DNA of 64,000 nt from Bacteroides cellulosilyticus (GTDB taxonomy: Bacteria; Bacteroidota; Bacteroidia; Bacteroidales; Bacteroidaceae): contig NZ_CP081903.1 in NCBI RefSeq assembly GCF_020091405.1, positions 6,871,739 through 6,935,738 of the forward strand, in the 5' to 3' direction. The notes under the pieces were generated by a model, which did no database searches, was not told the origin of the DNA, and saw only the letters and a list, made by a program, of their open reading frames with translations. Shown piece by piece: positions 31,427 to 49,938 of this stretch. The translations under genes were made by a program, and so were the position numbers. The stretch's first letter is position 1. Each line of letters begins with the position of its first letter.

Positions 31427-31634
31427 CGCGTATGGCGTACCTGTAGGTATCAACACCCGACTCCTCCCTTTTATCCTTTTCTAGTTCCCAAAGGATGTTT
31501 TTTTATAACGACCTTTCCCATAACCCGCTCTCACAATCAATTATCAGCCTGAAATCAAGATATCCATGCACACATTAGCCCTAAACTTTTCCTAATTCTC
31601 CCCTCCTTCGTGCCATTATATGAAAAATGTTTCG

Positions 31635-31642
31635 TATTTTTG
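31635..31642 (+). promoter_or_regulatory. -7 box TATTTTTG for lysS
   Basis: The box predicts a transcript start near 31649. That rules out the ATG at 31610 and supports a start at 31670 (or 31658). Confidence 0.6.
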
Positions 31643-31669
31643 CCCCAAATAGTGTTAATGTACAACGAA

Positions 31670-33400
31670 ATGAATGTATTAGAACTAAGTGAACAGGAAA
31701 TCATTCGACGTAATAGTATGAATGAACTTCGCGCGATGGGCATCGATCCCTATCCCGCTGCAGAGTATGTAACCAATGCTTTCTCCACTGATATAAAAGC
31801 AGAATTCAAAGATGACGCTGAACCTCGCAAAGTATCCGTAGCCGGACGTATGATGACACGCCGCGTGATGGGCAAGGCTTCATTCATTGAATTGCAGGAC
31901 TCTAAAGGTCGCATTCAGGTATATATTACCCGCGACGATATCTGTCCGGGAGAAGACAAGGATCTCTACAACACTGTATTTAAACGCCTGCTCGACTTAG
32001 GCGACTTCATTGGAATCGAGGGTTTTGTATTCCGTACCCAAATGGGTGAAATCAGTATCCATGCCCAAAAGCTGACTGTACTGGCAAAATCCATCAAACC
32101 GTTGCCTATTGTAAAATACAAAGACGGTGTAGCTTATGACTCCTTTGAAGATCCCGAACTCCGCTATCGTCAACGTTACGTTGACCTTGTAGTGAATGAC
32201 GGCGTAAAAGAAACATTCCTGAAACGTGCCACGGTTATTAAGACCATGCGTGCCGTACTGGACGAAGCCGGCTACACAGAAGTGGAAACTCCGATTCTGC
32301 AATCCATCGCAGGTGGAGCAAGCGCCCGTCCTTTCATCACTCACCACAACTCACTGAATATGGATCTGTATCTGCGTATCGCTACCGAGCTTTACCTGAA
32401 ACGTCTGATTGTAGGTGGCTTCGAGGGTGTATATGAAATCGGAAAGAACTTCCGCAACGAAGGTATGGACAAGAATCATAACCCGGAATTCACCTGTCTG
32501 GAACTGTACGTACAATATAAGGATTACAACTGGATGATGAGTTTCACCGAGAAATTGCTGGAACGTATCTGCATTGCCGTGAACGGCAGCGAAGAAACTA
32601 CCATCGACGGTAAGACCATCAGCTTCAAGGCACCATACCGCCGCTTGCCCATCCTGGACGCTATCAAGGAAAAAACAGGTTACGACCTCAATGGCAAGAG
32701 TGAAGAAGAAATCCGCCAGGTCTGCAAAGAACTGAAAATGGAGATTGACGACACCATGGGTAAAGGCAAATTGATAGATGAAATATTCGGTGAATTCTGC
32801 GAAGGCACTTTCATTCAGCCTACTTTCATTACTGACTATCCTGTTGAAATGAGTCCGCTGACCAAGATGCACCGCAGTAAACCGGGATTAACCGAACGTT
32901 TTGAACTGATGGTGAACGGTAAAGAGCTTGCCAATGCTTATAGCGAGCTGAACGACCCCATCGACCAGGAAGAACGTTTCAAAGATCAATTGCGATTGAG
33001 TGAAAAGGGAGACGATGAAGCTATGTTCATCGACCAGGATTTCCTGCGTGCCCTGCAATTCGGTATGCCTCCCACATCAGGTATCGGTATCGGCATTGAC
33101 CGTCTGACAATGCTAATGACAGGCAAGTCGTATATTCAGGAAGTATTGTTCTTCCCGCAAATGCGCCCCGAAAAGATCACTCCGAAAGATGCTCCCGCCC
33201 AATATATGGAACTGGGCATTGCCGAAGACTGGGTACCCGTTATTCAGAAAGCCGGCTACAACACAATAGAAGATATGAAAGATGTGAATCCGCAAAAACT
33301 GCACCAGGACATTTGCGGTATTAACAAGAAATACAAACTGGAACTGACCAACCCGTCGGTAAACGACGTAGAAGGCTGGATTGAGAAAATTAAGAATTAA
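31670..33400 (+). CDS. lysS: Lysine--tRNA ligase (class II)
   Basis: 576 residues from ATG 31670 (MNVLELSEQEIIRRNSMNEL), the expected length for Bacteroides. ATG 31658 in the same frame is possible; the longer frame from 31610 lies upstream of the promoter. The N-terminal OB-fold anticodon domain covers about 50-165 (VAGRMMTRRVMGKASFIELQD). The class II core has motif 2 FRNEGMDKNHNPEFT and motif 3 GIGIDRLTMLMT. A C-terminal extension of about 70 residues is typical of the genus. The end (KIKN-stop) runs into an AATTAAGAATTAAAG repeat. Confidence 0.97.
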   Translation: MNVLELSEQEIIRRNSMNELRAMGIDPYPAAEYVTNAFSTDIKAEFKDDAEPRKVSVAGRMMTRRVMGKASFIELQDSKGRIQVYITRDDICPGEDKDLYNTVFKRLLDLGDFIGIEGFVFRTQMGEISIHAQKLTVLAKSIKPLPIVKYKDGVAYDSFEDPELRYRQRYVDLVVNDGVKETFLKRATVIKTMRAVLDEAGYTEVETPILQSIAGGASARPFITHHNSLNMDLYLRIATELYLKRLIVGGFEGVYEIGKNFRNEGMDKNHNPEFTCLELYVQYKDYNWMMSFTEKLLERICIAVNGSEETTIDGKTISFKAPYRRLPILDAIKEKTGYDLNGKSEEEIRQVCKELKMEIDDTMGKGKLIDEIFGEFCEGTFIQPTFITDYPVEMSPLTKMHRSKPGLTERFELMVNGKELANAYSELNDPIDQEERFKDQLRLSEKGDDEAMFIDQDFLRALQFGMPPTSGIGIGIDRLTMLMTGKSYIQEVLFFPQMRPEKITPKDAPAQYMELGIAEDWVPVIQKAGYNTIEDMKDVNPQKLHQDICGINKKYKLELTNPSVNDVEGWIEKIKN

Positions 33401-33485
33401 AGAATTAAAAATTAAATAAGAAGATTAAAGATCGAATGAGGGAAAGGAGTTTCCTTTCCCCTTTTAATTTTTAATTATTAATTAT
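33391..33485. repeat. AATTAAGAATTAAA inverted low-complexity repeat
   Basis: The left block AATTAAGAATTAAAGAATT contains the lysS stop codon. The right block (AATTTTTAATTATTAATTATT) precedes gpsA. The two halves are largely complementary around GGGAAAGGAGTTTCCTTTCCC, which itself forms a GC-rich hairpin. Confidence 0.65.
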
Positions 33486-33495
33486 TAATTTCGAT

Positions 33496-34491
33496 ATGAA
33501 ACTACCCGGAAAGATAGCCATAATGGGCGGAGGAAGCTGGGCTACAGCCATTGCAAAAATGGTACTTGCTCAGGCTGAGTCGATTAACTGGTATATGCGA
33601 CGAGATGATCGCATAACCGATTTTAAACGACTGGGCCATAACCCTGCCTACCTGACGGGCGTCAAATTCGACATGAAGCGCATCAACTTCAGCTCTAATA
33701 TCAACGATGTAGTAAAAGAGTCTGATACGCTGATATTTGTCACCCCCTCCCCCTATCTCAAAGCTCACTTGAAGAAGCTGAAAACGCGGATACGGGATAA
33801 ATTCATCATTACTGCTATAAAAGGAATCGTACCCGACGACAATCTGATTGTATCGGAGTACTTCACAAAAGAATACGGCGTTCCACCCGAAAATATTGCT
33901 GTACTGGCAGGTCCCTGCCATGCGGAAGAAGTAGCCTTGGAACGTCTCTCTTATCTCACCATCGCTTGTCCGGACACAGACAAAGCATGTACCATCGCCC
34001 GCCGTCTGGCCAGTTCATTTATCAAAACATCCGTCAGCAATGACGTAGCCGGTATAGAATACAGCTCTGTGCTGAAAAACGTATACGCCATTGCCGCTGG
34101 TATCTGTAGCGGTCTGAAGTACGGTGATAACTTCCAGGCGGTATTGATATCCAACGCCGTGCAAGAAATGAACCGTTTCCTGCAAACAGTACATCCGCTG
34201 AACAGAAACGTAAATGATTCTGTTTATTTAGGTGATCTGTTGGTGACAGGATATTCCAACTTCAGCCGTAATCGCACGTTTGGTACAATGATTGGTAAGG
34301 GGTATTCTGTAAAAAGCGCGCAAATAGAAATGGAGATGATTGCCGAAGGATATTACGGTACAAAGTGTATCAAGGAAATCAACAAACATCACCATGTCAA
34401 TATGCCGATACTGGATGCTGTCTATAACATTCTGTACGAACGCATTTCACCCATGATAGAAATCAAGTTGCTGACTGATTCGCTAAGATAA
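33496..34491 (+). CDS. gpsA: Glycerol-3-phosphate dehydrogenase [NAD(P)+]
   Basis: 331 residues. It reduces dihydroxyacetone phosphate to sn-glycerol-3-phosphate for phospholipid synthesis. The Rossmann motif is atypically IMGGGSWATAIAKM, as in Bacteroidetes. GPCHAEEVALERLSYL and the catalytic-lysine region LKNVYAIAAGICSGL are present, as is GDLLVTGYSNFSRNRTFG. It lies between lysS and pgi in the same direction, 95 bp after lysS and 160 bp before pgi. Confidence 0.95.
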   Translation: MKLPGKIAIMGGGSWATAIAKMVLAQAESINWYMRRDDRITDFKRLGHNPAYLTGVKFDMKRINFSSNINDVVKESDTLIFVTPSPYLKAHLKKLKTRIRDKFIITAIKGIVPDDNLIVSEYFTKEYGVPPENIAVLAGPCHAEEVALERLSYLTIACPDTDKACTIARRLASSFIKTSVSNDVAGIEYSSVLKNVYAIAAGICSGLKYGDNFQAVLISNAVQEMNRFLQTVHPLNRNVNDSVYLGDLLVTGYSNFSRNRTFGTMIGKGYSVKSAQIEMEMIAEGYYGTKCIKEINKHHHVNMPILDAVYNILYERISPMIEIKLLTDSLR

Positions 34492-34651
34492 TCTCTCCCT
34501 TAACTCCTCTTCCGCAAAGAAGAGAATAAAGTCAGAGTTGCGATATAAAGAAAAGAATATTATAAATAAATCTTATAAACCAAAAGTAACTCAAGCCTAC
34601 CTTTTCCACAGGGAAGGGGACGGGTAAGAGGCTTTTAAAACCTAGAATATT

Positions 34652-35989
34652 ATGATTAGTTTGAACATCGAAAAGACTTTTGGATTTATCTCCAAAGCAT
34701 CTGTTGCTGCTTACGAAGCTCAGGTAAAAGCTGCGCAGGAAGCATTGGAAAACGGTACCGGAAAAGGTAATGACTTCCTGGGCTGGTTGCACCTCCCCTC
34801 ATCTATCAGCCAAGAGCATTTGGCCGACCTGAAAGCTACTGCACAAGTTTTGCGCGACAACTGTGAGGTAGTAATCGTAGCCGGCATCGGCGGAAGCTAT
34901 CTCGGCGCACGTGCAGTCATCGAGGCTTTATCAAACAGCTTCACTTGGTTGCAGGAAAAGAAAACTGCTCCTGTAATGATCTATGCAGGACACAATATCA
35001 GCGAAGATTATTTGTATGAACTGACTGAATTCCTGAAAGACAAGAAATTCGGCGTCATCAATATCTCCAAATCCGGAACTACCACCGAAACCGCTCTCGC
35101 TTTCCGTCTGTTGAAAAAGCAATGTGAAGACCAGCGTGGTAAGGAAATGGCAAAGAAAGTTATCGTTGCCATCACAGATGCCAAGAAAGGCGCTGCCCGC
35201 ATCACTGCTGATAAGGAAGGTTACAAATCATTCATTATCCCCGATAATGTGGGAGGACGCTTCTCTGTACTGACTCCGGTTGGTTTATTGCCGATAGCGA
35301 TAGCCGGTTTCGACATCGAGAAATTAGTAGCCGGTGCCGCTGACATGGAAAAGGCTTGCGGTGTGAATGTTCCGTTTGCCGAGAATCTGGCTGCGCAATA
35401 TGCTGCTACCCGTAACGAGCTGTACAAGAATGGCAAGAAGATCGAGATCCTTGTAAACTTCTGCCCGAAACTGCACTATGTAAGCGAATGGTGGAAGCAA
35501 TTATACGGAGAATCCGAAGGTAAGGAAAACAAAGGTATTTTCCCGGCAGCTGTAGACTTCTCTACTGACTTACACTCTATGGGACAATGGATTCAGGAAG
35601 GTGAACGTACCATCTTCGAAACCGTAATATCTATAGAAAACGTAGACCACAAGCTGGAAGTACCTTCTGACGAAGCAAATCTGGACGGTCTGAACTTTCT
35701 TGCAGGTAAGCGCGTAGACGAAGTAAATAAGATGGCTGAACTGGGTACTCAGTTGGCTCACGTAGATGGTGGTGTGCCCAACATGCGTATTATCATCGAG
35801 AAGCTGGACGAATACAATATCGGTCAGTTACTTTACTTCTTTGAAATAGGATGCGGTATCAGCGGTTATCTGCTGGGCGTAAATCCGTTCAATCAACCGG
35901 GCGTAGAAGCATACAAAAAGAATATGTTTGCATTGCTGAACAAGCCGGGATATGAAGAAGAGTCAAAAGCTATTCAGGCAAGACTTTAA
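34652..35989 (+). CDS. pgi: Glucose-6-phosphate isomerase
   Basis: 445 residues, the short bacterial class. It interconverts glucose-6-phosphate and fructose-6-phosphate. Signatures are [51 protein letters not shown] and the C-terminal [15 protein letters not shown]. The gene is followed by a strong terminator at 36015-36056. Confidence 0.97.
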
Positions 35990-36014
35990 GAAAGAGTCAG
36001 TTAACCATATATAA

Positions 36015-36056
36015 ACGAGGTGTGGATGAGTTTAATCATTCACACCTCGTTTTTTT
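36015..36056 (+). terminator. Terminator after pgi
   Basis: ACGAGGTGTG pairs with CACACCTCGT (36041-36050), with an inner ATGA/TCAT pairing, followed by seven Ts. Confidence 0.85.
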
Positions 36057-36060
36057 ATTG

Positions 36061-36068
36061 TATCTTTG
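36061..36068 (+). promoter_or_regulatory. -7 box TATCTTTG for HAD gene
   Basis: This exact TAnnTTTG box lies 22 nt before ATG 36091 and so fixes that start rather than the earlier in-frame codon at 36022. Confidence 0.7.
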
Positions 36069-36090
36069 CAACCATAAAACAATAGGTATT

Positions 36091-36819
36091 ATGTTTCAAG
36101 AAGCTATTTCCCGCTATCTTCAGTCCAGCGGGCACTCAAAAATTCAATTGAAATCCGTTCTTTTCGATATGGACGGCGTATTATTTAATTCCATGCCTTA
36201 CCATGCCGATGCCTGGCACAAGGTAATGGAACGCCATGGATTGCACTTGAGCCGTGAAGAAGCTTACCTGCATGAAGGACGAACCGGAGCTGCTACTATC
36301 AATATCGTCTATCAACGGCAATACGGAAAAGATGCCACTCCCGAAATGATACAGAGCATTTATGCAGAAAAGAGTGCAGAATTCAACAGTAACCCCGAAC
36401 CGGAACGCATGCCCGGTGCATGGGAAGTACTGCAGAAAATAAAATCGGATGGACTGATACCGATGGTGGTCACCGGTTCCGGACAACACTCATTATTAGA
36501 CCGTCTGTCGCATAACTTCCCCGGTATGTTCCGTCGCGAACTGATGGTAACTGCCTTCGATGTGAAATATGGGAAACCACATCCGGAACCTTACCTGATG
36601 GCTTTACAAAAAGGAGGATTAGCCCCCAATGAAGCTATCGTAGTAGAAAATGCGCCTATGGGCGTACAAGCTGGTGCAGCAGCAGGTATATTTACAGTAG
36701 CTGTCAACACAGGTCCCATCAACGGACAGGTCTTACTGGATGCCGGAGCAAATGTATTATTCCCGTCTATGCAGGATTTTTGCGACAATTGGGAGAACTT
36801 ACGTAAAGCGTTCGAATAA
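36091..36819 (+). CDS. HAD-superfamily hydrolase (beta-phosphoglucomutase-like)
   Basis: 242 residues. The nucleophile motif is DMDGVLFNS (about residue 24), with both Asp residues of a phosphatase or mutase. Motif II is VVTGSGQ, the motif III lysine is in YGKPHPEPYLMAL, and motif IV is VVENAPMGVQAGAAAG. A helical cap lies at about 35-110. It probably dephosphorylates a sugar phosphate; the exact substrate is unknown. The start follows a promoter box and the terminator of pgi, so it is transcribed on its own. Confidence 0.9.
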   Translation: MFQEAISRYLQSSGHSKIQLKSVLFDMDGVLFNSMPYHADAWHKVMERHGLHLSREEAYLHEGRTGAATINIVYQRQYGKDATPEMIQSIYAEKSAEFNSNPEPERMPGAWEVLQKIKSDGLIPMVVTGSGQHSLLDRLSHNFPGMFRRELMVTAFDVKYGKPHPEPYLMALQKGGLAPNEAIVVENAPMGVQAGAAAGIFTVAVNTGPINGQVLLDAGANVLFPSMQDFCDNWENLRKAFE

Positions 36820-36840
36820 AGAAATCGGACGCTTTTTTAT
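36805..36840 (+). terminator. Terminator overlapping the HAD stop codon
   Basis: AAAGCGTTCGA (36805-36815, last codons of the HAD gene) pairs with TCGGACGCTTT (36825-36835) and is followed by more Ts. The stop codon TAA is in the loop. Confidence 0.7.
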
Positions 36841-36859
36841 TTATGGAAAAGAAAATATT

Positions 36860-37204
36860 TTATCTTAATAGTTCACTGATCTTTTTCCTTAAATTTAACT
36901 TTATTATTTCGTCAGGTTTTAACTCAAGCTCTATCAAAATCTTGGCAGTAGAGAGTTTATAAGCTTCATTTCCCCTATCATAATTCATCTGTTCTTTATC
37001 GATAGAATAGAGCAGGGCAAAATCATAATCCAAAGCTTTTGAAACATTATATAAAGTATCCGTATCAATACTTTTTCGTGTCAACATATAGTCAACACTC
37101 TGAGGCTTAACTTGCAGTCTTCTTGCAAGTTCAGCCTTTGTCACCAGTTTTTCAACCATGACATTTTTTATAACTTCACCGATGTATATAGTAGTCTTTT
37201 CCAT
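36860..37204 (-). CDS. XRE-family helix-turn-helix protein
   Basis: 114 residues. The segment LVTKAELARRLQVKPQSVDYMLTRKSIDTDTLYNVSKALD is a clear Cro/C1-type HTH. The C-terminal part (TAKILIELELKPDEIIKLNLRKKISELL) looks like a helical dimerisation segment. No toxin partner lies beside it. It is divergent from a small membrane ORF and sits in the remnant zone beside the tRNA-Arg integration site, so it may be a leftover regulator of an earlier island. Confidence 0.8.
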   Translation of the reverse strand: MEKTTIYIGEVIKNVMVEKLVTKAELARRLQVKPQSVDYMLTRKSIDTDTLYNVSKALDYDFALLYSIDKEQMNYDRGNEAYKLSTAKILIELELKPDEIIKLNLRKKISELLR

Positions 37205-37316
37205 TTCTATGAAGGTACGATTTATTATCCAAACCTAGAGGAAGTGAAATAAAAATTTATCTGTCCTGTAATACCTATTTATTCACAATTCACTTGTTTT
37301 ATCAAATAAATTGTGA

Positions 37317-37324
37317 TACTTTTG
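37317..37324 (+). promoter_or_regulatory. -7 box TACTTTTG
   Basis: An exact box lies 37 nt before the ATG at 37362. Confidence 0.6.
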
Positions 37325-37361
37325 TCGCAGAATGATATAAACAATAAATAATCAAATTACC

Positions 37362-37613
37362 ATGACTCTACTGATTCTTATTCTGATAGCGATTCCTGTT
37401 TGTATCTTGACAATTCTATTATGGATATACAATGATTATAAAAAGTACAAAAGACAGAATTGCTTCTTGATTTTATTGTTTTTGGCTTTACCTGCCACTA
37501 TACAAGCTCAATACACAGACAAAAATTGCTGTGTAAACTCTAAATGGCATGAAAATCCAAAAGAAATATTAGAGCATACGACTGGAAGTTTCACCACTTC
37601 CCATGGTCGTTGA
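37362..37613 (+). CDS. Small membrane protein of unknown function
   Basis: 83 residues. There is one N-terminal hydrophobic helix (LLILILIAIPVCILTILLWI), a basic loop (YNDYKKYKRQ), and then a second hydrophobic stretch ending ALPATIQAQ that looks like a fused signal peptide. The last about 20 codons overlap what seems to be the coding-like end of another gene on the opposite strand (see findings), so the C-terminus may be accidental. The next frame starts at its stop. I do not recognise the family. Confidence 0.4.
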   Translation: MTLLILILIAIPVCILTILLWIYNDYKKYKRQNCFLILLFLALPATIQAQYTDKNCCVNSKWHENPKEILEHTTGSFTTSHGR

Positions 37614-37672
37614 CAATAAACCACAATTCTTCAATACCTTCAATTTTATCATTACGCCAATCAAAATTGATT

Positions 37673-37960
37673 ATGATACTCCAAGACATTAAAAGCCGTC
37701 TTAACGAAACGCGAAACTGGTACATTGTACTGACATTGCCCCGGAAAGAAAGAAAAACCAAAGAAACTTTGGAAAATAAAGGCATGATAACTTATCTCCC
37801 TACCATTTACGTAAAACGCAGATGGAAAGAACAAGTAAAAGAAATACAGATTCCCGCTGTAAACAGATGCGTATTTATTTACGCTACCGGTACAGAGCTA
37901 GAGGGATTAAAAGGAACATATCCTACTCTTCCGATAGAAATGACGGAAGTAGGACATTAG
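37673..37960 (+). CDS. NusG-N-terminal-like (UpxY-type) protein lacking the KOW domain
   Basis: 95 residues from ATG 37673; an earlier in-frame ATG at 37610 adds a non-conserved tail. RNWYIVLTLPRKERKTKETL, VKRRWKEQVKEIQIPAVNRC and VFIYAT match the NGN domain of specialised NusG paralogues such as Bacteroides UpxY, which are about 170-190 residues and end with a KOW domain. Here the frame stops right after the NGN region and a strong terminator follows at 37990. No capsule locus is downstream: the mobile element begins 65 bp later. It is probably a truncated antiterminator. Confidence 0.7.
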   Translation: MILQDIKSRLNETRNWYIVLTLPRKERKTKETLENKGMITYLPTIYVKRRWKEQVKEIQIPAVNRCVFIYATGTELEGLKGTYPTLPIEMTEVGH

Positions 37961-37989
37961 AGTTGACTTTACAACTGGAAAGGGAAAAA

Positions 37990-38019
37990 GGGGGACACCG
38001 TGATGGTATCCCCCTTTTT
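37990..38019 (+). terminator. Terminator GGGGGACACC...
   Basis: GGGGGA-ACC pairs with GGTATCCCCC and is followed by TTTTT. It closes the remnant zone directly before the left attachment site. Confidence 0.8.
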
Positions 38020-38024
38020 GTTGT

Positions 38025-38085
38025 GTGACCCCGGTGCGATTCAAACGCACGACCTTCAGAACCGGAATCTGACGCTCTATTCACT
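38025..38085. repeat. attL: 61-bp copy of the tRNA-Arg 3' part
   Basis: Identical over 61 bp to 49661-49721 and diverging on both sides. It starts GTGACCCCGGTGCGATTC and ends CTCTATTCACT. It includes the acceptor 3' strand, T arm, variable loop, anticodon arm and part of the D arm but lacks the tRNA 5' end, so it is not a functional tRNA gene. Confidence 0.92.
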
Positions 38086-38529
38086 TAACATCCTTGTTTC
38101 CTGTTGATTAACTCTCATATATTAGGTTGATTAGGAAACTATTAGGAAACCGTCAACCCAGTTAGTATAGTCCACCACTTTCACTCCAACAGGTATGAAA
38201 CCATAGGTTTTCTATATAGTACCCTAAAACCTACAAATCCATACTACAGGAGTTCCAGTCTTCGACTACGATTTCATCTTCCAGCCAAACCATTCTCTGT
38301 TCTAGGAGAGATTTATCGCTCAATGGTCTCACACACATCATATCCCATAATAACCATGCACCCTTACTCATAAGTCCGTTAGAATGTGGTATATGTCCTA
38401 AACTGAGAAGTGATAAAGCTCTGTAAGAAAAGCGGCAAAGAGTAATTCAATGCCGCTTCATCCTCAGTACTTTAGAGATATCATCTCTTCTTCATTTCGT
38501 AGTTCTCTTCTGATTCAGCATCCGTTGCC
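38086..38529. other. Left-end non-coding region of the element
   Basis: 444 nt without a convincing ORF. It contains the arm-type repeat at 38131-38150, a nearby related GGTTGATTAGG, and small hairpins (for example AAGCGGC...GCCGCTT around 38429-38456, which may terminate the minus-strand operon). It probably holds integrase or excision-factor binding sites. Confidence 0.5.
38131..38150 (+). repeat. Arm-type direct repeat, left copy
   Basis: TTAGGAAAC-TA-TTAGGAAAC, identical to 49539-49558, placed 45 bp inside the attL core. Confidence 0.75.
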
Positions 38530-39588
38530 TTAATATGCTTCTATAATTTGTCTAAACACATCTCCAGCCATCAATCCACCACTCGCAGGTAATCCCCTCT
38601 TGTTGATAGAGACTATCATTGTGTATTTGGGATTGTCAACAGGGAAGTAACCACAGAACTCAACTCCATATTCAGCATCTTCTTCATTGATAACAATAGT
38701 ACCTTGCATCCCTGCTACTGAGACCTTATTAGACTTAACTGTTTTACCTAATCCGTCTGTTACATTGAATAGCAATGCCTGTTTCAGTTTGCCGATGCTC
38801 GCCTGACTTGCTATTAGTGGGTTGATTACCGTTATGCTATCCTTATATAGCTGTGGTTGTATCATTTTCCCATTGTTAGCAATGGCATTATAAAATGTGA
38901 GAATCTGAATTGGAGTAATCAGTTGGTCATATCCAATGCAGAACCAAGTGGTGTTACCATCTTCAACAGAATAGGATTTCAGATTAGCTATTCCTGTGAT
39001 GCTATCTGGCTTTCCGTAACTCATTTTATTCAGTAAGTTAAAGTAATCCTGCGTATGATTATCAAACGCAGCTTCTATCACCTTATAAGCTGCAATGTTG
39101 GAACTGTAAGCCAATCCTTGTTTCACTGAAATCTCACCATATCCGCCTCTATGCCAATTATGGTCTTTCAGTTCTTCTCCATCTACATGATAGATACCAT
39201 TGTCAACGTCCACCATCTCACCCAATTCAACTTTTCCAGTTTCCAAAGCTGCCAATAATGATATTGGGTGCATTAGGCTTGTAGGCTGCTGGGTGGCGAA
39301 GTTCTCACTTGGTTGATAGTCTGTACTGTCTTTCCTTTCAAGTCCAACCAGAGCCTTGATTTGTCCTGTCTGAACTTCCATGATAATCACTTGTCCAGAT
39401 AAGGCGTTAATCTCTGATAACTTGTTTCCTAATATAGAAGTAGCCTTAACTTGTAAGGTGCTGTCTATGGTGGAGCTTTGTATAACTTCCTGCTGCTTGA
39501 GTTGGCATGATAGTAAACACGTTGTTACAAGAATAATTATATAGGTTCTCACAGTTGCCTTAATCGTAAGCATTAATAAAGTTGCCAT
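38530..39588 (-). CDS. FtsI-like transpeptidase-domain lipoprotein with degenerate active site
   Basis: 352 residues. The lipoprotein signal has lipobox LLSC (Cys28). The rest aligns by eye with the transpeptidase domain of Bacteroides FtsI/PBP3-class proteins: IMEVQTGQIKALVGLE, ISLLAALETGKVELGEMVDV, GYGEISVKQGLAYSSNIAAY, IGYDQLITPIQILTFYNAIA, CGYFPVDNPKYTMIVSINK. The pedestal domain and N-terminal membrane helix of a class B PBP (about 700 residues) are absent. The catalytic motif SxxK reads S104-L-M-H107, SxN is intact (S162-S-N164), and KTG(T) reads M294-Q-G-T297. Both catalytic lysines are therefore lost, which should abolish acylation. It is the last gene of a compact operon. Inferred role: a periplasmic decoy, binder or inhibitor of septal wall synthesis rather than an enzyme. 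Confidence 0.85.
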   Translation of the reverse strand: MATLLMLTIKATVRTYIIILVTTCLLSCQLKQQEVIQSSTIDSTLQVKATSILGNKLSEINALSGQVIIMEVQTGQIKALVGLERKDSTDYQPSENFATQQPTSLMHPISLLAALETGKVELGEMVDVDNGIYHVDGEELKDHNWHRGGYGEISVKQGLAYSSNIAAYKVIEAAFDNHTQDYFNLLNKMSYGKPDSITGIANLKSYSVEDGNTTWFCIGYDQLITPIQILTFYNAIANNGKMIQPQLYKDSITVINPLIASQASIGKLKQALLFNVTDGLGKTVKSNKVSVAGMQGTIVINEEDAEYGVEFCGYFPVDNPKYTMIVSINKRGLPASGGLMAGDVFRQIIEAY

Positions 39589-39596: not shown

Positions 39597-39902
39597 TTAT
39601 GCTCCTTGTCTTTTAAGCTCTACATCTAGATCATCTAATATAGACTTTAAGAATGAAAAGAGTTCCCTTGTGGTAGCTTGTCTTCCTTTAAATCTGTATG
39701 ATGCAATAGTTGCAGCACTACTGCTTGATATGACTTCTTGTAACTCAATGAATTGTTCCTTTAGAACATTCCATTCTAACCGTATTTGTTGGAAAGAACA
39801 GCCAGACGCAAGTTTATTATATAAGAAGTCAAGTTGTACCTCCATTTCCTTTAGGAGATGATTAGCTCGATTTACCGTCTTATAAGCATTAAATAGTCCC
39901 AT
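39597..39902 (-). CDS. Small helical protein of unknown function
   Basis: 101 residues with no signal peptide. Heptad-like helices run through most of the chain (NRANHLLKEMEVQLDFLYNK, ELFSFLKSILDDLDVELK), so a coiled-coil bundle is likely. The stop lies 8 bp before the FtsI-like gene and the start is 4 bp after the preceding gene's stop, so translation is probably coupled. I do not recognise the family. Its fixed place before the FtsI-like gene suggests a joint function. Confidence 0.6.
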   Translation of the reverse strand: MGLFNAYKTVNRANHLLKEMEVQLDFLYNKLASGCSFQQIRLEWNVLKEQFIELQEVISSSSAATIASYRFKGRQATTRELFSFLKSILDDLDVELKRQGA

Positions 39903-39906: not shown

Positions 39907-40263
39907 TTATAGTTTTAAGATTTCTAATACTGCTATTGCCTTATTTCTCAGTTCAAGAGAAGAGTTTAATTGGTAGCGTCTATTTACCTTCTCATCCCAT
40001 AGCTTGATGGCGAACAATGCCCCTAATGCGCAGGTATATTGACTGCTAAAGATGAAGTATGGTATTGTATGAAGAGCCGTCAAAAAATCGTGTGCGGTAG
40101 GTGCTAATCTTAACCGTAATGATCTACCATCGAGTTCTGCCAGCTTATTAGAATTGCTAACCTTATCATAGACCTTCTTGAACTTCTCCACTCCATTGTG
40201 GCGTATGTATTCATTAGAGAAACCATCTATAATTTCTTCTAATGTGTTTGCTAAGAATTCCAT
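39907..40263 (-). CDS. Small protein of unknown function
   Basis: 118 residues with no signal peptide. It opens with an amphipathic helix (MEFLANTLEEIIDGFSNEYI), has a basic middle (RSLRLRLAP) and a moderately hydrophobic segment (TIPYFIFSSQYTCALGALFAIKLW), and ends in a charged helix (ELRNKAIAVLEILKL). It could contact the membrane. It is in the five-gene minus-strand operon, 42 bp after the TerB-like gene. No family is recognised. Confidence 0.6.
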   Translation of the reverse strand: MEFLANTLEEIIDGFSNEYIRHNGVEKFKKVYDKVSNSNKLAELDGRSLRLRLAPTAHDFLTALHTIPYFIFSSQYTCALGALFAIKLWDEKVNRRYQLNSSLELRNKAIAVLEILKL

Positions 40264-40305: not shown

Positions 40306-40650
40306 TTAAACCAAAGGAGGTAGATTGTACATCTTAACCATATAATGTAGTACTTTAAGTTCCATTTCATTAATTACTTCATCTACTGTTGCCATTTCAA
40401 CAAGTAATTTGTGTATCATAAGTTTCTTCTGGAAATCCAAGTTACTAATCAATGTCTGAACTTCTTCTTCTTTCATTAAGGCGGCTTCTTCGATTATTCC
40501 ACCTAAGAAATCCTCCAAACTAAAGCAAAGAGCTTTACTTGCTATTTCACTGAGTAGGCTATTCTCAAGGGAGCCTCTACGTCCGTCTGCATTTGCGATT
40601 ATTATCAATGTATGTAATATCGCTAACCTTTCTTTTGTGCTAAGTGACAT
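40306..40650 (-). CDS. TerB-like small protein (second of pair)
   Basis: 114 residues. LAILHTLIIIANADGRRGSLENSLLSEIA followed by LDFQKKLMIHKLLVEMATVDEVINEMELKVLHYMV has the A-x-ADG-x(n)-E and hydrophobic helix pattern of TerB (tellurite resistance) domains, which are all-helical metal- or membrane-associated modules found in many stress and phage-defence contexts. A strong GGAGG ribosome-binding site precedes the ATG. It resembles the upstream protein at 40739-41050 in its C-terminal half. The assignment is by pattern only. Confidence 0.55.
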   Translation of the reverse strand: MSLSTKERLAILHTLIIIANADGRRGSLENSLLSEIASKALCFSLEDFLGGIIEEAALMKEEEVQTLISNLDFQKKLMIHKLLVEMATVDEVINEMELKVLHYMVKMYNLPPLV

Positions 40651-40696: not shown

Positions 40697-40740
40697 AATA
40701 AAAGCGTAAGGAACAGTAATATTTTGGTATTACTACGCTT
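40697..40740 (-). terminator. Terminator/attenuator inside the left-end operon
   Basis: On the minus strand AAGCGTA pairs with TACGCTT, with inner GTAATA/TATTAC pairing, followed by TTTATT. It starts at the stop codon of the first TerB-like gene and so could limit read-through into the four genes downstream. Confidence 0.6.
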
Positions 40741-41050
40741 ATAAGTCTAATATCTTCTTTACGTTTTGAGCCAACTTGTATCTAAAGCTGCCAACAGTGT
40801 CACAAGCAGCGATTTCATTAATCCAGTCAAAGACTATCTTACGTTTTGAGTAATCCATATTGTGTAAAATGATAAAAGCTTCTCTTGGTGATAACTGTGC
40901 TGATTGGTTTGACATCTCTGGTGAAATTGAAAACCTCTCATAGGCTTCTAAGAGGATATTAAAAGGTTTTCCAGTAGGATAAGATTGTTCTCCACATGCA
41001 GCAACTCTAAGAATTGCACTAAATGCGATTAGTTCTTTACTTGTAAACAT
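40739..41050 (-). CDS. TerB-like small protein (first of pair)
   Basis: 103 residues from ATG 41050 (MFTSKELIAFSAILRVAACG). A GTG at 41128 extends the frame by 26 residues without clear support. EAFIILHNMDYSKRKIVFDWINEIAACDTVGSF lines up by eye with EVQTLISNLDFQKKLMIHKLLVEMATVDEVINE of the next gene, so the two look paralogous. It is the first gene after a leader of about 445 nt containing a structured RNA. An attenuator-like hairpin directly follows its stop. Confidence 0.5.
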   Translation of the reverse strand: MFTSKELIAFSAILRVAACGEQSYPTGKPFNILLEAYERFSISPEMSNQSAQLSPREAFIILHNMDYSKRKIVFDWINEIAACDTVGSFRYKLAQNVKKILDL

Positions 41051-41207
41051 AGATTTGAAATTGTGCTTACCTGTCCCCTCTAGCAAGCGATTATAGTATA
41101 AGTGTGAGGAACACAGCGATAGCTGCACACTTCATTAATGAATTGTTAATTGATAAGTACTCTGTTTCGTATGGTAATTCATGTATTATAGCCAGTGTTC
41201 CCTAACT

Positions 41208-41646: not shown

Positions 41647-42234
41647 TTAGAAGCTGAGACAGTCATAAGTCTGTAATATCTCTTCCTGCCTTAAACCGAG
41701 ATACCGTTTTGTGATGGCAACCGAACTATGATTGAATAGTTCCATCAGTTTGACCAATGCCAGTTCCGCATTATCACTGTTCATATTATAGACCTGTCTA
41801 CCAAATGTCTTTCTAAGGGAATGGCAGCTAAAGTTCTTAATCTTTAGCCTGTACTTCTTCTTCACCTCTTTAAGAATGATATTGATTCTCTGTACTGTGA
41901 AGATAGCGCCTTTCTGACTTATAAGGATTGGCGCATTGATTCCAACCGGATTTATATGCTCGTAGCACTCTTTAATATGTTGCTGCAATTGGGGGTTCAG
42001 TCTGATAGTTCTTACCTTACCCGTCTTCTTCTCAATTACAGTGAACTCGTCAGCACCTAATATATGTTTCCACCTTAGAGATAGAATATCAGATATTCTT
42101 AAACCTGTGAAGCATCCCAAAGCTATAAGGAGCGAGATTTTATAATTCTCGTCCTTAACTAACTTCCTTATGAGGTTCATAGCATCAGACCATATAAGGT
42201 AATCCGCAGTTGTACTTGAATATTTAAGTGACAT
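41647..42234 (-). CDS. Short tyrosine recombinase (catalytic domain only)
   Basis: 195 residues, about half the length of a normal integrase. It has the complete catalytic set: Arg46 (TGLRISDI), His138-x-x-Arg141 (CHSLRKTFG), His169 (LFNHSS) and Tyr178 (ITKRYLG). The N-terminal arm- and core-binding domains are missing, so it may work with a partner or on a short site, like small invertases and resolvases of this class in Bacteroides. It lies in the middle of the element, next to a long bulged hairpin. It is not the element's main integrase, which is at 48253. Confidence 0.88.
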   Translation of the reverse strand: MSLKYSSTTADYLIWSDAMNLIRKLVKDENYKISLLIALGCFTGLRISDILSLRWKHILGADEFTVIEKKTGKVRTIRLNPQLQQHIKECYEHINPVGINAPILISQKGAIFTVQRINIILKEVKKKYRLKIKNFSCHSLRKTFGRQVYNMNSDNAELALVKLMELFNHSSVAITKRYLGLRQEEILQTYDCLSF

Positions 42235-42370: not shown

Positions 42371-42646
42371 TTAGAACGGTTTATCTCCGTACTGATAAGC
42401 TAAGATGGAATGATAAACCCTGTCGTAGAATGAGAACCCGCAACATGGTTGGAAGTAGCTCTTATAAGCTGCCGCATACTCACCCTGTGACTTTCCTTGC
42501 TTATCTAATAAGGTGTCCAGTGTGTTTAGCCAATGCCTTAAAGCCTGTAATCTCTTTATGTATTGCAGGTTGTTCTCGCTGTGGCATAATCTAACCTGTA
42601 AGGTAGTTATATGATTTATAGCCTTTTCTATTTCCTTTGTATTCAT
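42371..42646 (-). CDS. Small protein of unknown function
   Basis: 91 residues from ATG 42646 (MNTKEIEKAINHITTLQVRL). A longer frame reaches 42730 but adds an unlikely hydrophobic tail. The N-terminal half is helical with a heptad flavour (LQYIKRLQALRHWLNTLDTLLDKQ). The C-terminus is rich in aromatic residues and Cys (YKSYFQPCCGFSFYDRVYHSILAYQYG). It lies between the DUF3871 gene and the short recombinase. No family is recognised; it may be an element housekeeping or regulatory protein. Confidence 0.5.
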   Translation of the reverse strand: MNTKEIEKAINHITTLQVRLCHSENNLQYIKRLQALRHWLNTLDTLLDKQGKSQGEYAAAYKSYFQPCCGFSFYDRVYHSILAYQYGDKPF

Positions 42647-42742
42647 AATGTCTAATAATCTGGGGTTATAACTCTTAGTATATAAGGGAGGCATGGAATA
42701 GAAAATGGACACCACCGGAGTAGTGCCCATTCAGTAAGACGC

Positions 42743-44061: not shown

Positions 44062-45690
44062 TTACCTTTCTTCCAGTTCTTCTAATGCAGCATTTATCGC
44101 TTTCTTTGCTCGTAATTGTCTTAGTGTATTAACTCCTAACTTACTATATCCCTCTACCAATATTGGATGCTTTGTAGATATGGTTTCTAACTCCTGTTCT
44201 TCGCTATCTGATAGCATGCCCTCCTTGCTCTTTAAGTCACAGAACCGTTTATGATAATCTCTGAACTGTGGCGATGCAAGAATATTCTTCATTATATCCT
44301 CGTCTGCAATGTCCCATTCATAGCCTTGGTTGATTACTATGCCTAATTTCTTATAAGCCTCTTGCAGTGCTTCTGACGACCTATATATTATATTTGTAGT
44401 CCAATGTTGATAGAGCTTTAACTGGGCAACCATGTCATTGACTTCGTATCTGTCACCTTTCTTGATAATATATGTATGAACGCCCAGTCTCTCAAACTCC
44501 TTATCCTGCTGCTTTAATATCTTTATATCAGTCTCCTTATTCAGTTGCTCTGCTCTTCTGCAGGCAGTAGCAAGTTCGTCCTCTATGCTCTCCTTCATCA
44601 CATCAAACGGAAGGTAGTAATTCATAGCCTTGGGGTTGAAGATATGTACTATCTTATTCCTAAACGGATTGGACTTAGTTCTGATACGTCCTGCAATCTG
44701 GGGTATATCCATGTCAATGCTGATTAGGGTATGCTTGTTGTAGCCGTTACTAACGATAAAGCATATTGCCGTTTCAGAGTAGTAGTCCACTCCTTCAAAT
44801 GCCTTGCAAGTCACGAATGTAAACCGTTTGGCGGGAGCTGTTGAATTGGATATCTCAAAGCCTTCCAATTTATAATGATTCAATTCATCATCAGCACATA
44901 TAATTCTACAGTCGTCATTAGTTAACTTGCACTGCTTGAGTATCTCCTTAATCTCTCTTACACTATTAACAAAGAAGTATGCTTCCTCACTCTTAATCCC
45001 GTCTAAGACGAAGTAGCCTATATCTTGATAGTGCTTGATAATCTTAGCTGCTGTAGTACTTGCGTTCTTACAAGGGTAAGGATAGACTGTAATCTTATCC
45101 ACCGTCTTCCAGTTGGCAACATATTCTTCCATCTCTGCGAATATGTCGGGTTTAAACCGTTCTGGGATAGGGGTTGCAGTTAAGAAGCAATGAGACTTGA
45201 AGCATTTAAACTTCTCCATGATTTGATTTATTACCATTGTCCTAAACCCATATTGCTTTAACAGATTGTGATACTCATCCACAAGTATCTTAAATTCAAG
45301 CGGATTAATGAGGTCAATCAGTTTATCTACCTTATCATATGTACAGATTATCTTCTTAACTCCGTCCTGTTTAAGGAACTTACTTAACTTAGCTTTCACC
45401 GTCCTGTTGAGTTTATCATATAAGCCAAACAGTCTGTCATTAGTAGGACTTACCCCTGCTTGAATCTGTGACTTCTTCCAAGTAATGTCCTTACCATCCT
45501 TATCTTTAGGCGGGTAGCACTTATTAATTACCAACTCTGTCGTAGGTACGGCAATAATGTAATTCTCGTTATTAGTAAGTGCTATCGTAGTAGCACCGCA
45601 TCCAGTCTTAACCTTGTTGAAGATGCAATTCTCTGGGAAGTCATCCATAATGAGATAACCGTCCCGCTCTTGAATATCTAACTTTATCAT
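44062..45690 (-). CDS. DExH helicase-like protein with lysine-less P-loop
   Basis: 542 residues. Superfamily 2 motifs can be followed: motif I KTGCGATT (residues 28-35), motif II VDEYH (137-141), motif III LTATPIPE (170-177), and motif VI QIAGRIR (331-337) preceded by FVTCKAFEGVDYYSE. In motif I the invariant Lys of GxGK(T/S) is Ala33. The rest of the fold looks complete and the reading frame is intact, so this is a natural variant rather than a broken gene. The C-terminal 180 residues are helical and charged. A replication or remodelling role for the element is inferred. Confidence 0.7.
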   Translation of the reverse strand: MIKLDIQERDGYLIMDDFPENCIFNKVKTGCGATTIALTNNENYIIAVPTTELVINKCYPPKDKDGKDITWKKSQIQAGVSPTNDRLFGLYDKLNRTVKAKLSKFLKQDGVKKIICTYDKVDKLIDLINPLEFKILVDEYHNLLKQYGFRTMVINQIMEKFKCFKSHCFLTATPIPERFKPDIFAEMEEYVANWKTVDKITVYPYPCKNASTTAAKIIKHYQDIGYFVLDGIKSEEAYFFVNSVREIKEILKQCKLTNDDCRIICADDELNHYKLEGFEISNSTAPAKRFTFVTCKAFEGVDYYSETAICFIVSNGYNKHTLISIDMDIPQIAGRIRTKSNPFRNKIVHIFNPKAMNYYLPFDVMKESIEDELATACRRAEQLNKETDIKILKQQDKEFERLGVHTYIIKKGDRYEVNDMVAQLKLYQHWTTNIIYRSSEALQEAYKKLGIVINQGYEWDIADEDIMKNILASPQFRDYHKRFCDLKSKEGMLSDSEEQELETISTKHPILVEGYSKLGVNTLRQLRAKKAINAALEELEER

Positions 45691-46009: not shown

Positions 46010-47104
46010 TTAAGCATTCAGAGCTTCTTGAAGCATCGCTTGGAAATCATCATCTTCCTTTACCTGCTTTAGTTTCTCGTCATTAAGCTCTAATTGCTTT
46101 AGTTTCTCCAAAGCCTCAAATGCTTGCTCCTCACCATGTACTTTGGCATAGCTGTTAAAGCCTTTAATGAAATAGCGTTTAGTAAGATATGGAACGCTGA
46201 TATTGGCAGCCTTACATAGTGTTATGAAATCGTTACCTCTTTTGATGTCAACTATGGCATCTTTGGATAGCTTGTACTCTCCTCCTTTTAAGACCTTGTT
46301 TAGTGTCTTCTCTGGAATATTCTTCTTGGTGTAAATCAAACCTGCCGTCGTTGGGTTGAATCCTTGTTGGATTAATTCATCCATATTCTCAAAGAGTTTA
46401 TCTTTAGAGGTCAGAGCGGCAACACCTACCTTAGCTTTCATATCCCAGTTGCCAATTCTATTGATTTCTTCCAGATAACCTCCCACATTCTCTCCCATAT
46501 CTTTAATCTCTTTAACAAAGACATTAGGGATAACTATGTCACCGTTAACAGAATTAAGTTTAGCAAATGCAGTACTTCTATGTTGACCATCTAAGATTAC
46601 AAAGTAGTCTTCTACCTCTTCTTCTGTTAGTGCTCTACTGTTTACATCTGTTATAGTATAGCCAGCTTTTATCAGTTCTTTGGCTTCTACAACGATGATA
46701 GGATAGGCATCTTCATATTTACCATTAGCAATAATGCCAATGAACTCATCTACCTTCTTAGAATCAATGGTTCTATTATGTTTCACAAAGGCAATCCTCT
46801 TGGAGACCTTCTCACCAGTCTTGGTTAATTGGAATGTTATAGGTTCATCATTAAGAGTGAGAGCAAGGGCTTCCTTTTTACTATCTTTCTTAACTTTAGC
46901 TTGCTTTAATCGCTCAATGATTTGTCTTTGGCAATTAATTACTGCTTCATCCTGCTTCCTATTAATCATATTCTTTAAATCCCTCTCAGCTTTAACCAGT
47001 TGTTGTTTCAAACTTGTAGTGCGCACAACCTTTCCTGATTTAGCGTTAGCTACTGAATCAATGTTTATTGTAGTCTCTCCTACTGTCTTAGTAATTGCTT
47101 CCAT
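46010..47104 (-). CDS. ParB/DGQHR-domain protein
   Basis: 364 residues. A Lys/Arg-rich helical N-terminus (about 25-80) precedes a ParB/sulfiredoxin-like domain with the diagnostic ILDGQHRSTAFAKLN (Asp172-Gly-Gln-His-Arg176). The rest is helical (GFNPTTAGLIYTKKNIPEKTL, an HTH-like stretch) and ends in an acidic tail. Such proteins either bind DNA at partition sites or, in DGQHR families such as DndB, act in DNA-modification systems. No dnd-type genes are present. Beside a long tandem duplication in non-coding DNA, a partition or replication role is plausible. Confidence 0.75.
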   Translation of the reverse strand: MEAITKTVGETTINIDSVANAKSGKVVRTTSLKQQLVKAERDLKNMINRKQDEAVINCQRQIIERLKQAKVKKDSKKEALALTLNDEPITFQLTKTGEKVSKRIAFVKHNRTIDSKKVDEFIGIIANGKYEDAYPIIVVEAKELIKAGYTITDVNSRALTEEEVEDYFVILDGQHRSTAFAKLNSVNGDIVIPNVFVKEIKDMGENVGGYLEEINRIGNWDMKAKVGVAALTSKDKLFENMDELIQQGFNPTTAGLIYTKKNIPEKTLNKVLKGGEYKLSKDAIVDIKRGNDFITLCKAANISVPYLTKRYFIKGFNSYAKVHGEEQAFEALEKLKQLELNDEKLKQVKEDDDFQAMLQEALNA

Positions 47105-47286: not shown

Positions 47287-48192
47287 TTAAGACATTACAT
47301 AAAAGTAATTTGAAGTACTTATAGGAGCATAGTCTGTACACTTCTTGATGGTATCTGCTACTTTCTTACCAACATCTACAGGCTCTCTAATATATTCAAT
47401 TCCGTTCAAGGTTACTGTTCCAAATTGTTTAATCATAAACCAGTTTCTCTTAGTAATGGGAGTATGCAAATAACTTGTGTAAAACCATTCCTGCTCTGCG
47501 ATGTTAGCAAGGTATAAGAATCTACCTATGAATGTCATTTTACTTGGCTTAACAGCAGTTATATGAGCATCCAGAAAGTATCTGAACAGCTCAACGAAGA
47601 ATTTCATCTTACGAGTTCTGACCTTATCTTCTTCAGTTGTAGAACTCCAATATGGTACTATATCAAGTGAGTTATCAACAGAAAGCAGATGCTCTGCACA
47701 AAATTTCTTGAATAGATGTAATAAGATGGGATTGTCGGTTGATACCGTCTTCCCTTCTGTCTTTAATATTAATTGTGTATTATGAGGATTCTCATATTCA
47801 GTATGTAGTTCTCTCTTAATCTGCAAGGTATCATTAAGCATGTCATATAAATCCATTATGGTCTCACGAGTAGTTGGAGGAGACTTTATCTCATAGCTAA
47901 AGCAACTATTAGTGAAGTCTGTGGCAAAGAGGAATAGTAACCAGAACTTATCAGGATTGAGATTATAGATTGTAAGCGTCTTCTGGATTTCAAGATTTGA
48001 AATGAATTCCTCATACTTATCATTGTACTGTTCTTCAAGGATGGAGAACCTATTCTTAAATATGTCCGTAGCAGTAAGCTCTGCCAGTTCCAATGTATCA
48101 TCGTCCATAAACTCATCTGGTCTACAATATCTTCTTGCAACGAAGGCAATGTATTCTAATTTATCTTCTGTTAATTCCATTAATCTAAGCAT
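47287..48192 (-). CDS. Unknown protein of the mobile element
   Basis: 301 residues; the start is probably at ATG 48192 or at the ATG four codons later (MELTEDKLEYIAF). It is mostly helical, acidic in the first half (CRPDEFMDDDTLELAEL) and aromatic in the second (RNWFMIKQFGTVTLNG). No signal peptide, membrane helix, zinc cluster or known catalytic motif is seen. It lies between the integrase and the ParB-like gene, where elements of this kind often carry replication-initiation or regulatory genes, but I see no winged-helix or primase motif to support that. Confidence 0.55.
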   Translation of the reverse strand: MLRLMELTEDKLEYIAFVARRYCRPDEFMDDDTLELAELTATDIFKNRFSILEEQYNDKYEEFISNLEIQKTLTIYNLNPDKFWLLFLFATDFTNSCFSYEIKSPPTTRETIMDLYDMLNDTLQIKRELHTEYENPHNTQLILKTEGKTVSTDNPILLHLFKKFCAEHLLSVDNSLDIVPYWSSTTEEDKVRTRKMKFFVELFRYFLDAHITAVKPSKMTFIGRFLYLANIAEQEWFYTSYLHTPITKRNWFMIKQFGTVTLNGIEYIREPVDVGKKVADTIKKCTDYAPISTSNYFYVMS

Positions 48193-48252: not shown

Positions 48253-49521
48253 TCATTTATCCCAAACATACTTCATAACCTTAGCATTAGCTTTGTTCTC
48301 CATCACGAAATCACGCTCAATATAAATGTCTGTTACTTTCATTGCATCGTCAACATGATTCAACGCTGCATGAACAGTGTATTTATCAATTCCAACCTTA
48401 TTAAGTGCTATAGTAGCCCATGAATGGCGGGCAGCATAATATTCTAAATCGTCCACTTCCAACAACGCTCCAATCTCCTTTAAGCCATAATTGATTGCCT
48501 TGTTAAATCCCTTCTCGTCAACATAGTATTGATAGAAGTTGAATAGACGTTTGCCTGTCATATCCTTATACTTCTCAATGAGAGGCAGGATTAACTTAGG
48601 TATATCAACCTTCATTTGAGCTTTATCCAATCTACGGTCTTTCGTCTTGGTACGATTATAGATGATTGTATTGCCTTCCATCTCAGTGGCATTATAAAGG
48701 TCTGCTGAGTTCATACCCATAAGGCAGAATGAGAGTATGAAGCAATCTTTAGCTAGATTATAACGGCATGTAGCCTTATAACCTTTCTTCATATCCTTAT
48801 AAGGTAGATTCCATACCTTCTTAATAATGTCTACCGGTATTGCTCGTTTACGTGTAGCTTCCTGCCTAGGAACTTCTACATGTTCAAATGGAGAGTTAGG
48901 TATAAGAATTATATTCTTATCATAATCATTATATTTCTTCTTAGCTTCATTGAAGAGATGTCTTATGCTTCCCAAATAGAGTGAAACTGTCCTATTGGAA
49001 GGTATTCGTTTACCCTGCTTCTGTAATTGAATCACCAATTCTTCTCTCTTAAGGTTGAGATATGCCTTGAAACCATTTAGGAGTTGAGAGGTAACTTCAT
49101 CTGTCTTTAAATGTTCCTTACCTAAATAGTTCATAAAAGAATTAAGGGCAGACTGATAGTTCTTCCTTCCCTTAATACTTGTCGTCTCCAACCATTCCTT
49201 ACAGAACTGAATGAAATCTATAGACCGTGTTCGCTCACGCTCTGACTTTAAGTAATCGAACACATCATCTAAAGTGCAAGCATTCACTTCCAACTGAAGT
49301 TTAGCACATATGCCTTGATAAGTACGGACAAGATTATCAACTTCCCGCTTAATAGGAGTTCCTTCCTTCAGCTTCAAGGACTTGGTTAAGTCCTTAGATG
49401 TTGCAAAGAGACTTGTAGACAATCTCTTAAACTTACGGTCTAGAGTAAACCTAAGCTTTACATTATAAGTTCCGTCACTCTTAACCTCACCTTTCTTGAT
49501 TTCTTCTCTAATAGTCAGCAT
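48253..49521 (-). CDS. int: Tyrosine integrase of the element (Arg-I-less type)
   Basis: 422 residues with the three-part layout of Bacteroidetes integrases: an arm-binding N-terminus (about 1-85), a SAM-like core-binding domain (about 100-195) and a catalytic domain (about 225-415). Catalytic residues read Arg365 (YAARHSWAT), His389 (LNHVDD) and Tyr400 (TDIYIERD). The first arginine is replaced: GMNSADL has Asn271 where most have GLRxxDL, and the HxxR histidine is Tyr362. The known CTnDOT integrase also lacks the first Arg, so this is a recognised variation. It sits 140 bp from the right attachment site and must be the enzyme that used the tRNA-Arg site. Confidence 0.92.
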   Translation of the reverse strand: MLTIREEIKKGEVKSDGTYNVKLRFTLDRKFKRLSTSLFATSKDLTKSLKLKEGTPIKREVDNLVRTYQGICAKLQLEVNACTLDDVFDYLKSERERTRSIDFIQFCKEWLETTSIKGRKNYQSALNSFMNYLGKEHLKTDEVTSQLLNGFKAYLNLKREELVIQLQKQGKRIPSNRTVSLYLGSIRHLFNEAKKKYNDYDKNIILIPNSPFEHVEVPRQEATRKRAIPVDIIKKVWNLPYKDMKKGYKATCRYNLAKDCFILSFCLMGMNSADLYNATEMEGNTIIYNRTKTKDRRLDKAQMKVDIPKLILPLIEKYKDMTGKRLFNFYQYYVDEKGFNKAINYGLKEIGALLEVDDLEYYAARHSWATIALNKVGIDKYTVHAALNHVDDAMKVTDIYIERDFVMENKANAKVMKYVWDK

Positions 49522-49538
49522 CTTAGCTCTTACTTAAA

Positions 49539-49558
49539 TTAGGAAACTATTAGGAAAC
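49539..49558 (+). repeat. Arm-type direct repeat, right copy
   Basis: Identical to 38131-38150 (two TTAGGAAAC units 2 bp apart). It lies between the integrase start and the attR core, 102 bp inside the core. Confidence 0.75.
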
Positions 49559-49660: not shown

Positions 49661-49721
49661 GTGACCCCGGTGCGATTCAAACGCACGACCTTCAGAACCG
49701 GAATCTGACGCTCTATTCACT
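49661..49721. repeat. attR: 61-bp direct repeat within tRNA-Arg
   Basis: Identical to 38025-38085. It covers the tRNA from the discriminator base to the D loop. Confidence 0.92.
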
Positions 49722-49734
49722 AAGCTACGGAGCC
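49662..49734 (-). tRNA. tRNA-Arg (anticodon CCG)
   Basis: 73 nt, complete cloverleaf on the minus strand: acceptor GGCTCCG/CGGGGTC (two G-U pairs), D arm GCTT...GAGC, anticodon arm TCAGA-TTCCGGT-TCTGA with CCG at positions 34-36, 5-nt variable loop, and T arm GTGCG-TTTGAAT-CGCAC. The discriminator is A; CCA is not encoded. It decodes CGG arginine codons. Its 3' 60 nt are the right attachment site of the mobile element, and the sequence was restored by the insertion. Confidence 0.95.
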
Positions 49735-49747
49735 TTAAATGCGGGGA

Positions 49748-49913: not shown

Positions 49914-49938
49914 CCGAACAAAAACATAGTACGCACTT

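Follow-up and report, generated by a model that had tools for sequence, protein, structure and literature searches.

A mobile family of FtsI-like proteins with lost catalytic motifs in Bacteroidales

The locus and its integrative element

The 64,000-nt stretch of Bacteroides cellulosilyticus DNA analysed here (the window) carries, within an element integrated at a tRNA-Arg gene, an open reading frame for a lipoprotein with an FtsI-type transpeptidase (TP) domain, hereafter pseudo-FtsI. The features of the locus are the following:

38025–38085, no strand: left att copy, 61 bp, same as the corresponding part of tRNA-Arg (repeat search; empty site in L115)
38530–39588, minus: pseudo-FtsI lipoprotein (signal peptide and lipobox Cys28, FtsI-type transpeptidase domain, SLMH / SSN / MQG)
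39597–39902, minus: cargo ORF, 8 bp upstream of the pseudo-FtsI gene
39907–40263, minus: cargo ORF, unknown
40306–40650, minus: cargo ORF, TerB domain (E 2.5e-7)
40739–41128, minus: cargo ORF, no Pfam family
41647–42234, minus: short tyrosine recombinase directly upstream of the cargo slot (E 3.4e-19)
42371–42730, minus: small ORF common to the window and L003
42743–43756, minus: DUF3871 backbone protein (E 2.5e-166)
44062–45690, minus: backbone ORF resembling a helicase by eye only (no Pfam family above cut-off)
46010–47104, minus: ParB-like backbone protein (weak, PHROG E 3.7e-4)
47287–48192, minus: backbone ORF, function unknown
48253–49521, minus: tyrosine integrase (Phage_int_SAM_5 above cut-off; arm-binding and catalytic domains weaker)
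49661–49721, no strand: right att copy within tRNA-Arg (repeat search; empty site)
49661–49734, minus: tRNA-Arg (CCG), integration target

The transpeptidase fold is present in full in the window protein, which is 40–44% identical to the host FtsI domain. Its SxxK, SxN and KTG positions read SLMH, SSN and MQG, the Ser and SxN thus being retained. Both the N-terminal membrane helix and the pedestal are missing; instead, a signal peptide ends in a lipobox (LLS before Cys28) and the TP domain starts at about residue 34–40. These features uphold what an earlier note had read from the letters, namely an FtsI-type domain that lost its catalytic motifs together with the pedestal and membrane helix, and gained a lipobox. 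The defining motifs set the protein apart from catalytic FtsI, though it belongs to the same fold family.

The perfect 61-bp direct repeat at 38025–38085 and 49661–49721 matches part of the tRNA-Arg gene. In a related genome (G808, locus L115) the site is empty: window segments 31568–38085 and 49661–50988 align there to adjacent stretches that overlap by exactly 61 bases, which indicates an insertion of 11,636 bp. The integrase adjoins the tRNA-Arg gene, and the DUF3871 gene, the short recombinase and five co-oriented cargo genes (34.8–39.3% GC) lie further in, with pseudo-FtsI as the last. Integrase, att repeats and empty site together bear out the mobile element proposed earlier. The same tRNA-Arg in G790 (L116) hosts a related but different element devoid of the pseudo-FtsI gene. 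Bounding direct repeats of 177–242 nt, 10.3–13.5 kb apart, enclose an integrase and pseudo-FtsI in four of five further loci examined (L006, L090, L091 and L093); a search of the fifth, L044, found none. No relaxase or transfer gene appeared among the Pfam matches of the element ORFs scanned. A 38-nt repeat (79%) near both att copies, at 38113–38150 and 49521–49558, may represent integrase arm sites. Parts of a group II intron with a reverse transcriptase/maturase were also seen near asnA (51082–52826).

Distribution, motif loss and selection across the family

The family comprises 25 members from 22 sources, including two (L128 and L139) that were met while reading elements. Searches at the family level (E 1e-90) matched 8 of 399 genomes, own included, at 10 loci, two of which are the 484- and 487-aa members; at the genus level (E 1e-95) they matched 43 of 158 genomes, with short-frame members in 12 (14 loci, own included) and frames of 703–748 aa as the remaining matches; and at the order level (E 1e-95) 2 of 393, the own genome and G654. 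These genome counts are lower bounds because the E cut-offs are strict, L128 and L139 having been missed by the genus-level search. The genome_contigs set yielded 29 loci, four of them close members and the rest FtsI- or PBP-type. One member (L093) comes from another family of the same order, another (L005) from the isolate B. xylanisolvens XB1A, and three of the 22 sources (G135, G379 and G814) each hold two divergent members. A contig binned as uncultured Clostridium (L004) carries a Bacteroidales-type element, probably as a result of a binning error.

Phage and plasmid origins were considered and rejected. Matches were found in 22 of 50,697 phage records, all below 60% identity and the best by bits at 36% over 63% of the query; there was no convincing BFVD fold match, and the single IMG/VR viral contig with a member (L082) displays the same element backbone. 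The three best plasmid matches are 37.5–38.9% identical, two of them (H22 and H23) being FtsI in dcw clusters on plasmid-labelled records and the third (H21) having no annotation. The plasmid-listed records NZ_OY725928.1 and NZ_OY725768.1, on which dcw cell-wall clusters lie, probably represent fragments of chromosome assemblies.

Each of the 25 collected members is an open frame of 286–487 aa; the TAA reported for L093 falls within the three codons that precede its 357-aa ORF. Two members, L128 and L139, have internal deletions, the stretch after the FYNAIAN-like segment being absent in both. Motif counts, taken from one alignment of 24 members plus L139 separately, revealed the SxxK Lys in a single member (L045), the SxxK Ser in 5/25, SxN in 16/25 and KTG in 3/25, with all three motifs intact only in L045. 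Ser, Lys and KTG Lys occur in 38/38 comparison rows, which were classed as FtsI-type by carrying these residues rather than by a full-length check. To the question raised earlier of whether SxxH/MQG-type changes are conserved across elements, these counts answer that the Lys is lost in 24/25 members and KTG in all but three; the window copy is not a lone decayed outlier among motif-keeping homologues. L045 (G135, 9735–10835) is a lipoprotein reading SLCK, SSN and KTG; its gene has other surroundings, and a TPR-CHAT gene lies ~4 kb upstream.

Beyond the motifs, the pseudo group still conserves 38 of the 67 columns that are near-invariant in FtsI-type rows, the residue being unchanged in 36; across the PGSTFK block, the commonest residue differs at each of the six positions. 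Within the main clade of 17 members, His occupies the SxxK Lys position in 15, the Ser position is Gly in nine and Ala in five, and the KTG Lys is missing in 14. In a tree of 61 rows, a branch supported at 100/100 separates 23 members from all other rows; L128 and L139 were left out, and the tree, which came with a warning on long branches meeting, is unrooted because the PBP2 outgroup L099 was dropped (no tblastn match at 1e-3). Viewed from FtsI, the first to split off is the membrane-anchored L092 (STVE); L045 falls outside the main clade. The nearest catalytic relatives are FtsI of Bacteroidales. The earlier suggestion that the element captured a host FtsI domain is consistent with this topology, as far as an unrooted tree with long branches goes.

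Purifying selection acts on the family: dN/dS was 0.11–0.38 in 60 estimates (among 66 listed of 253 pairs), save for one very close pair with few changes (0.45). By segment, main-clade values were 0.14–0.45 over 31 pairs; no segment exceeded 1 in these averages, which hide single sites, so that nothing points to an arms race. Between the window copy and every relative, dS (1.6–2.3) is near saturation, which makes the dN/dS of this copy (0.11–0.22) rough.

The lipobox Cys is found in 20 of the 23 members listed, two of them (L005 and L083) recognized by eye, as the script pattern missed both; it is absent in L042 and L093, and L092 has a membrane segment instead. In surface lipoproteins of B. 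fragilis, acidic residues are overrepresented behind the Cys (consensus SDDDD; PMC5080379). The window copy lacks any such signal: it reads CQLKQQEV, and other members CQxKQQ, CNSTKQ, CTPTKQ and similar, in contrast to a lipocalin-like neighbour that reads CSDDDEEE. Two acidic residues at +2 to +6 occur in 0/20 lipobox members versus 7/7 lipocalin-like lipoproteins encoded near such genes. From this absence we infer an anchor that faces the periplasm. The lipobox agrees with the outer- or inner-membrane tether put forward earlier, either membrane being a candidate.

A cargo slot with exchangeable cassettes

A search of the 158 genus genomes (E 1e-60) located the short recombinase at 57 places, and the downstream stretch (mostly the first 6 kb) was read at 47 of them, 13 with pseudo-FtsI and 34 without. 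In L006, L082, L085 and L087 the pseudo-FtsI gene is inserted before the last gene of a module made of an ORF with weak likeness to a J domain (DnaJ, sub-threshold E 0.002), a 136-aa ORF, a 212–259-aa ORF and a lipocalin-like lipoprotein; the same module lacks it in L120, L126 and L129. There is therefore no obligate partner gene at these places, and pseudo-FtsI behaves as an independent cassette whose product has to work by itself or on host factors. In 25/35 fetched elements a lipoprotein gene comes after the short recombinase; per ORF, lipoproteins in the cargo after the recombinase (35/112) are not clearly above those in the flanking chromosome (5/22), a rough count, as the rule missed the cargo of L138.

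Several neighbourhoods deserve mention in their own right. In L092 (G863, 9149–10728) the membrane-anchored member overlaps a LytTR DNA-binding ORF by 4 bp, possibly as a regulator pair. Another recombinase of the family to which the short one belongs, with differing envelope cargo, is present in the own genome (L133, G000:C1:3799260-3807300). Related large ORFs lie downstream of pseudo-FtsI in L004 (5713–7842) and L041 (11833–13731), that of L004 with a glucosaminidase (endolysin-like) domain.

Recombinase-linked arrays of orphan immunity genes (rAID; reference recombinase BF9343_RS08045) are known in Bacteroidales (PMC12247911). Like them, the present elements have short, low-GC genes, all in one orientation and differing from genome to genome, downstream of a tyrosine recombinase; rAID calls for at least two co-oriented downstream genes below 41% GC, and the window element has five, at 34.8–39.3%. 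They differ in that no known immunity family is found among the element cargo proteins scanned and in that several cargo genes encode envelope lipoproteins. No repeat common to the cargo gaps was evident among 20 listed of 22 repeat families.

Possible functions of pseudo-FtsI

As the window protein and nearly all of its relatives on similar elements lack key catalytic residues, it probably binds something rather than builds cell wall. Fold, motif losses, intact frames, purifying selection, mobility and cassette exchange were computed, and action by binding is what we infer from them: pseudo-FtsI is very probably a selected, binding-only pseudoenzyme of mobile elements. It is like FtsI/PBP3 (PF00905) in its fold, in the above identity to the host domain and in the SxN kept by 16/25 members, and unlike it in that the pseudo group lost the SxxK Lys (24/25), keeps KTG intact in 3/25, lacks the pedestal and is borne by mobile elements, with a lipobox in place of the membrane helix in the window copy.

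The most likely mode of action, which we propose tentatively and by inference, is that of a protective decoy. The protein, a lipid-anchored and periplasm-facing FtsI transpeptidase domain with its catalytic residues lost, whose gene is a cassette of its own in the cargo slots of small integrative elements, would bind a putative periplasmic ligand and thereby keep it from FtsI or septal peptidoglycan. Candidate ligands are an incoming toxin, a phage factor or a peptidoglycan fragment, whose capture would protect the host and the element within it. We favour this reading because the TP fold is kept, contacts of the type seen in the Pseudomonas aeruginosa divisome are lost and the gene is traded among slots like protective cargo. 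Single-gene cassettes, repertoire-like presence and divergent copies side by side speak for it, as does the precedent, in the same order, of the recombinase-linked immunity arrays outlined in PMC12247911. On the other side, PADLOC made no call for the protein, dN/dS exceeds 1 in no segment and the cargo is not clearly lipoprotein-enriched; a loose, passive decoy does not explain the near-fixed His at the lost Lys (15/17 of the main clade), and the near-saturated dS of the window copy makes its own ratios rough.

Alternatively, pseudo-FtsI might be a dominant-negative look-alike that docks on septal partners of the host (FtsL, FtsN-like activators, FtsW) and slows or alters the building of the septal wall to the element's advantage, which we regard as rather unlikely. 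Its nearest catalytic relatives, the FtsI of Bacteroidales, fit this reading, and inactive PBP 2B of B. subtilis, also a class B PBP, can keep a structural part in division, as reported in PMC5656894; that precedent shares action without catalysis, although it concerns a laboratory mutant of a full-length division protein and not a natural mobile gene. In P. aeruginosa FtsI (PMC7614612), however, the parts that contact FtsW are the membrane helix and the linker following it; FtsL is contacted by the pedestal and by a patch on the TP domain to which Y229, R233 and residues 551–557 belong. The membrane helix, its linker and the pedestal are missing here, which weakens the direct FtsW binding put forward earlier. 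Alignments of pseudo-FtsI to P. aeruginosa PBP3 stop at residue 549 or before, short of the 551–557 contact, and V47 aligns with Y229 at a position that is Asp in 37/38 FtsI-type rows and V, T or other in the pseudo group. Moreover, two divergent copies coexist in 3/22 sources, unlike what a strong inhibitor would allow. The missing contacts would weaken a divisome role by analogy with P. aeruginosa, from which they are known; the Bacteroides divisome may differ. Of the further roles suggested earlier, blocking division and excluding competing elements may be regarded as possibilities.

Binding of peptidoglycan or lipid II, as a sensor or as a clamp tethering the membrane to stem peptides without chemistry, is unlikely. 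The conserved columns (38/67, 36 with the same residue) agree with it, and the LytTR overlap of L092 could mark a sensor pair, but the commonest residue is changed at 6/6 PGSTFK positions, the KTG Lys is mostly lost and SxN is changed in 9/25, making it improbable that FtsI-like stem-peptide recognition is intact; the LytTR case is also single, with no further LytTR-linked relative in 399 genomes at E 1e-100 in a search run without a positive control. Residual or alternative catalysis with His replacing Lys, to which the His of the main clade and the Ser and SxN of the window copy would lend themselves, appears very improbable from the motifs, as the Ser position of that clade is mainly Gly (9/17) or Ala (5/17) and its KTG Lys is missing in 14/17. 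Likeness to the penicillin target had suggested a sponge sequestering beta-lactams; judged on residues, this idea was rejected as extremely improbable, the SxxK Lys being absent in 24/25 members and the nucleophilic Ser that these drugs acylate in 20/25. There is likewise very little chance that a captured domain is decaying: motifs drift, two members are internally deleted and two lack the lipobox Cys, but 25/25 frames are open, purifying selection acts and the members form one clade. Simple decay was hence rejected, in agreement with the earlier note, although decayed copies may have escaped an ORF-based collection, which is biased towards intact frames.

Class B PBPs are among the best-studied drug targets. 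Our literature search, which covered listings of open-licence papers, turned up no account of a natural, mobile and dead FtsI family. L045, with all motifs intact, offers a matched live/dead pair. Extended to the whole family, the decoy reading would make these proteins copies of a host division enzyme that lack catalysis and divisome contacts and catch toxins or phage factors directed against FtsI or the septal wall. Such target-mimic immunity would be maintained as a repertoire of cassettes on small integrative elements; we put this forward as a doubtful possibility. Should pseudo-FtsI modulate division, it would serve as a naturally occurring tool for probing the divisome without catalysis. 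A decoy role, if true, would point to warfare in gut Bacteroides that targets FtsI or the septal wall.
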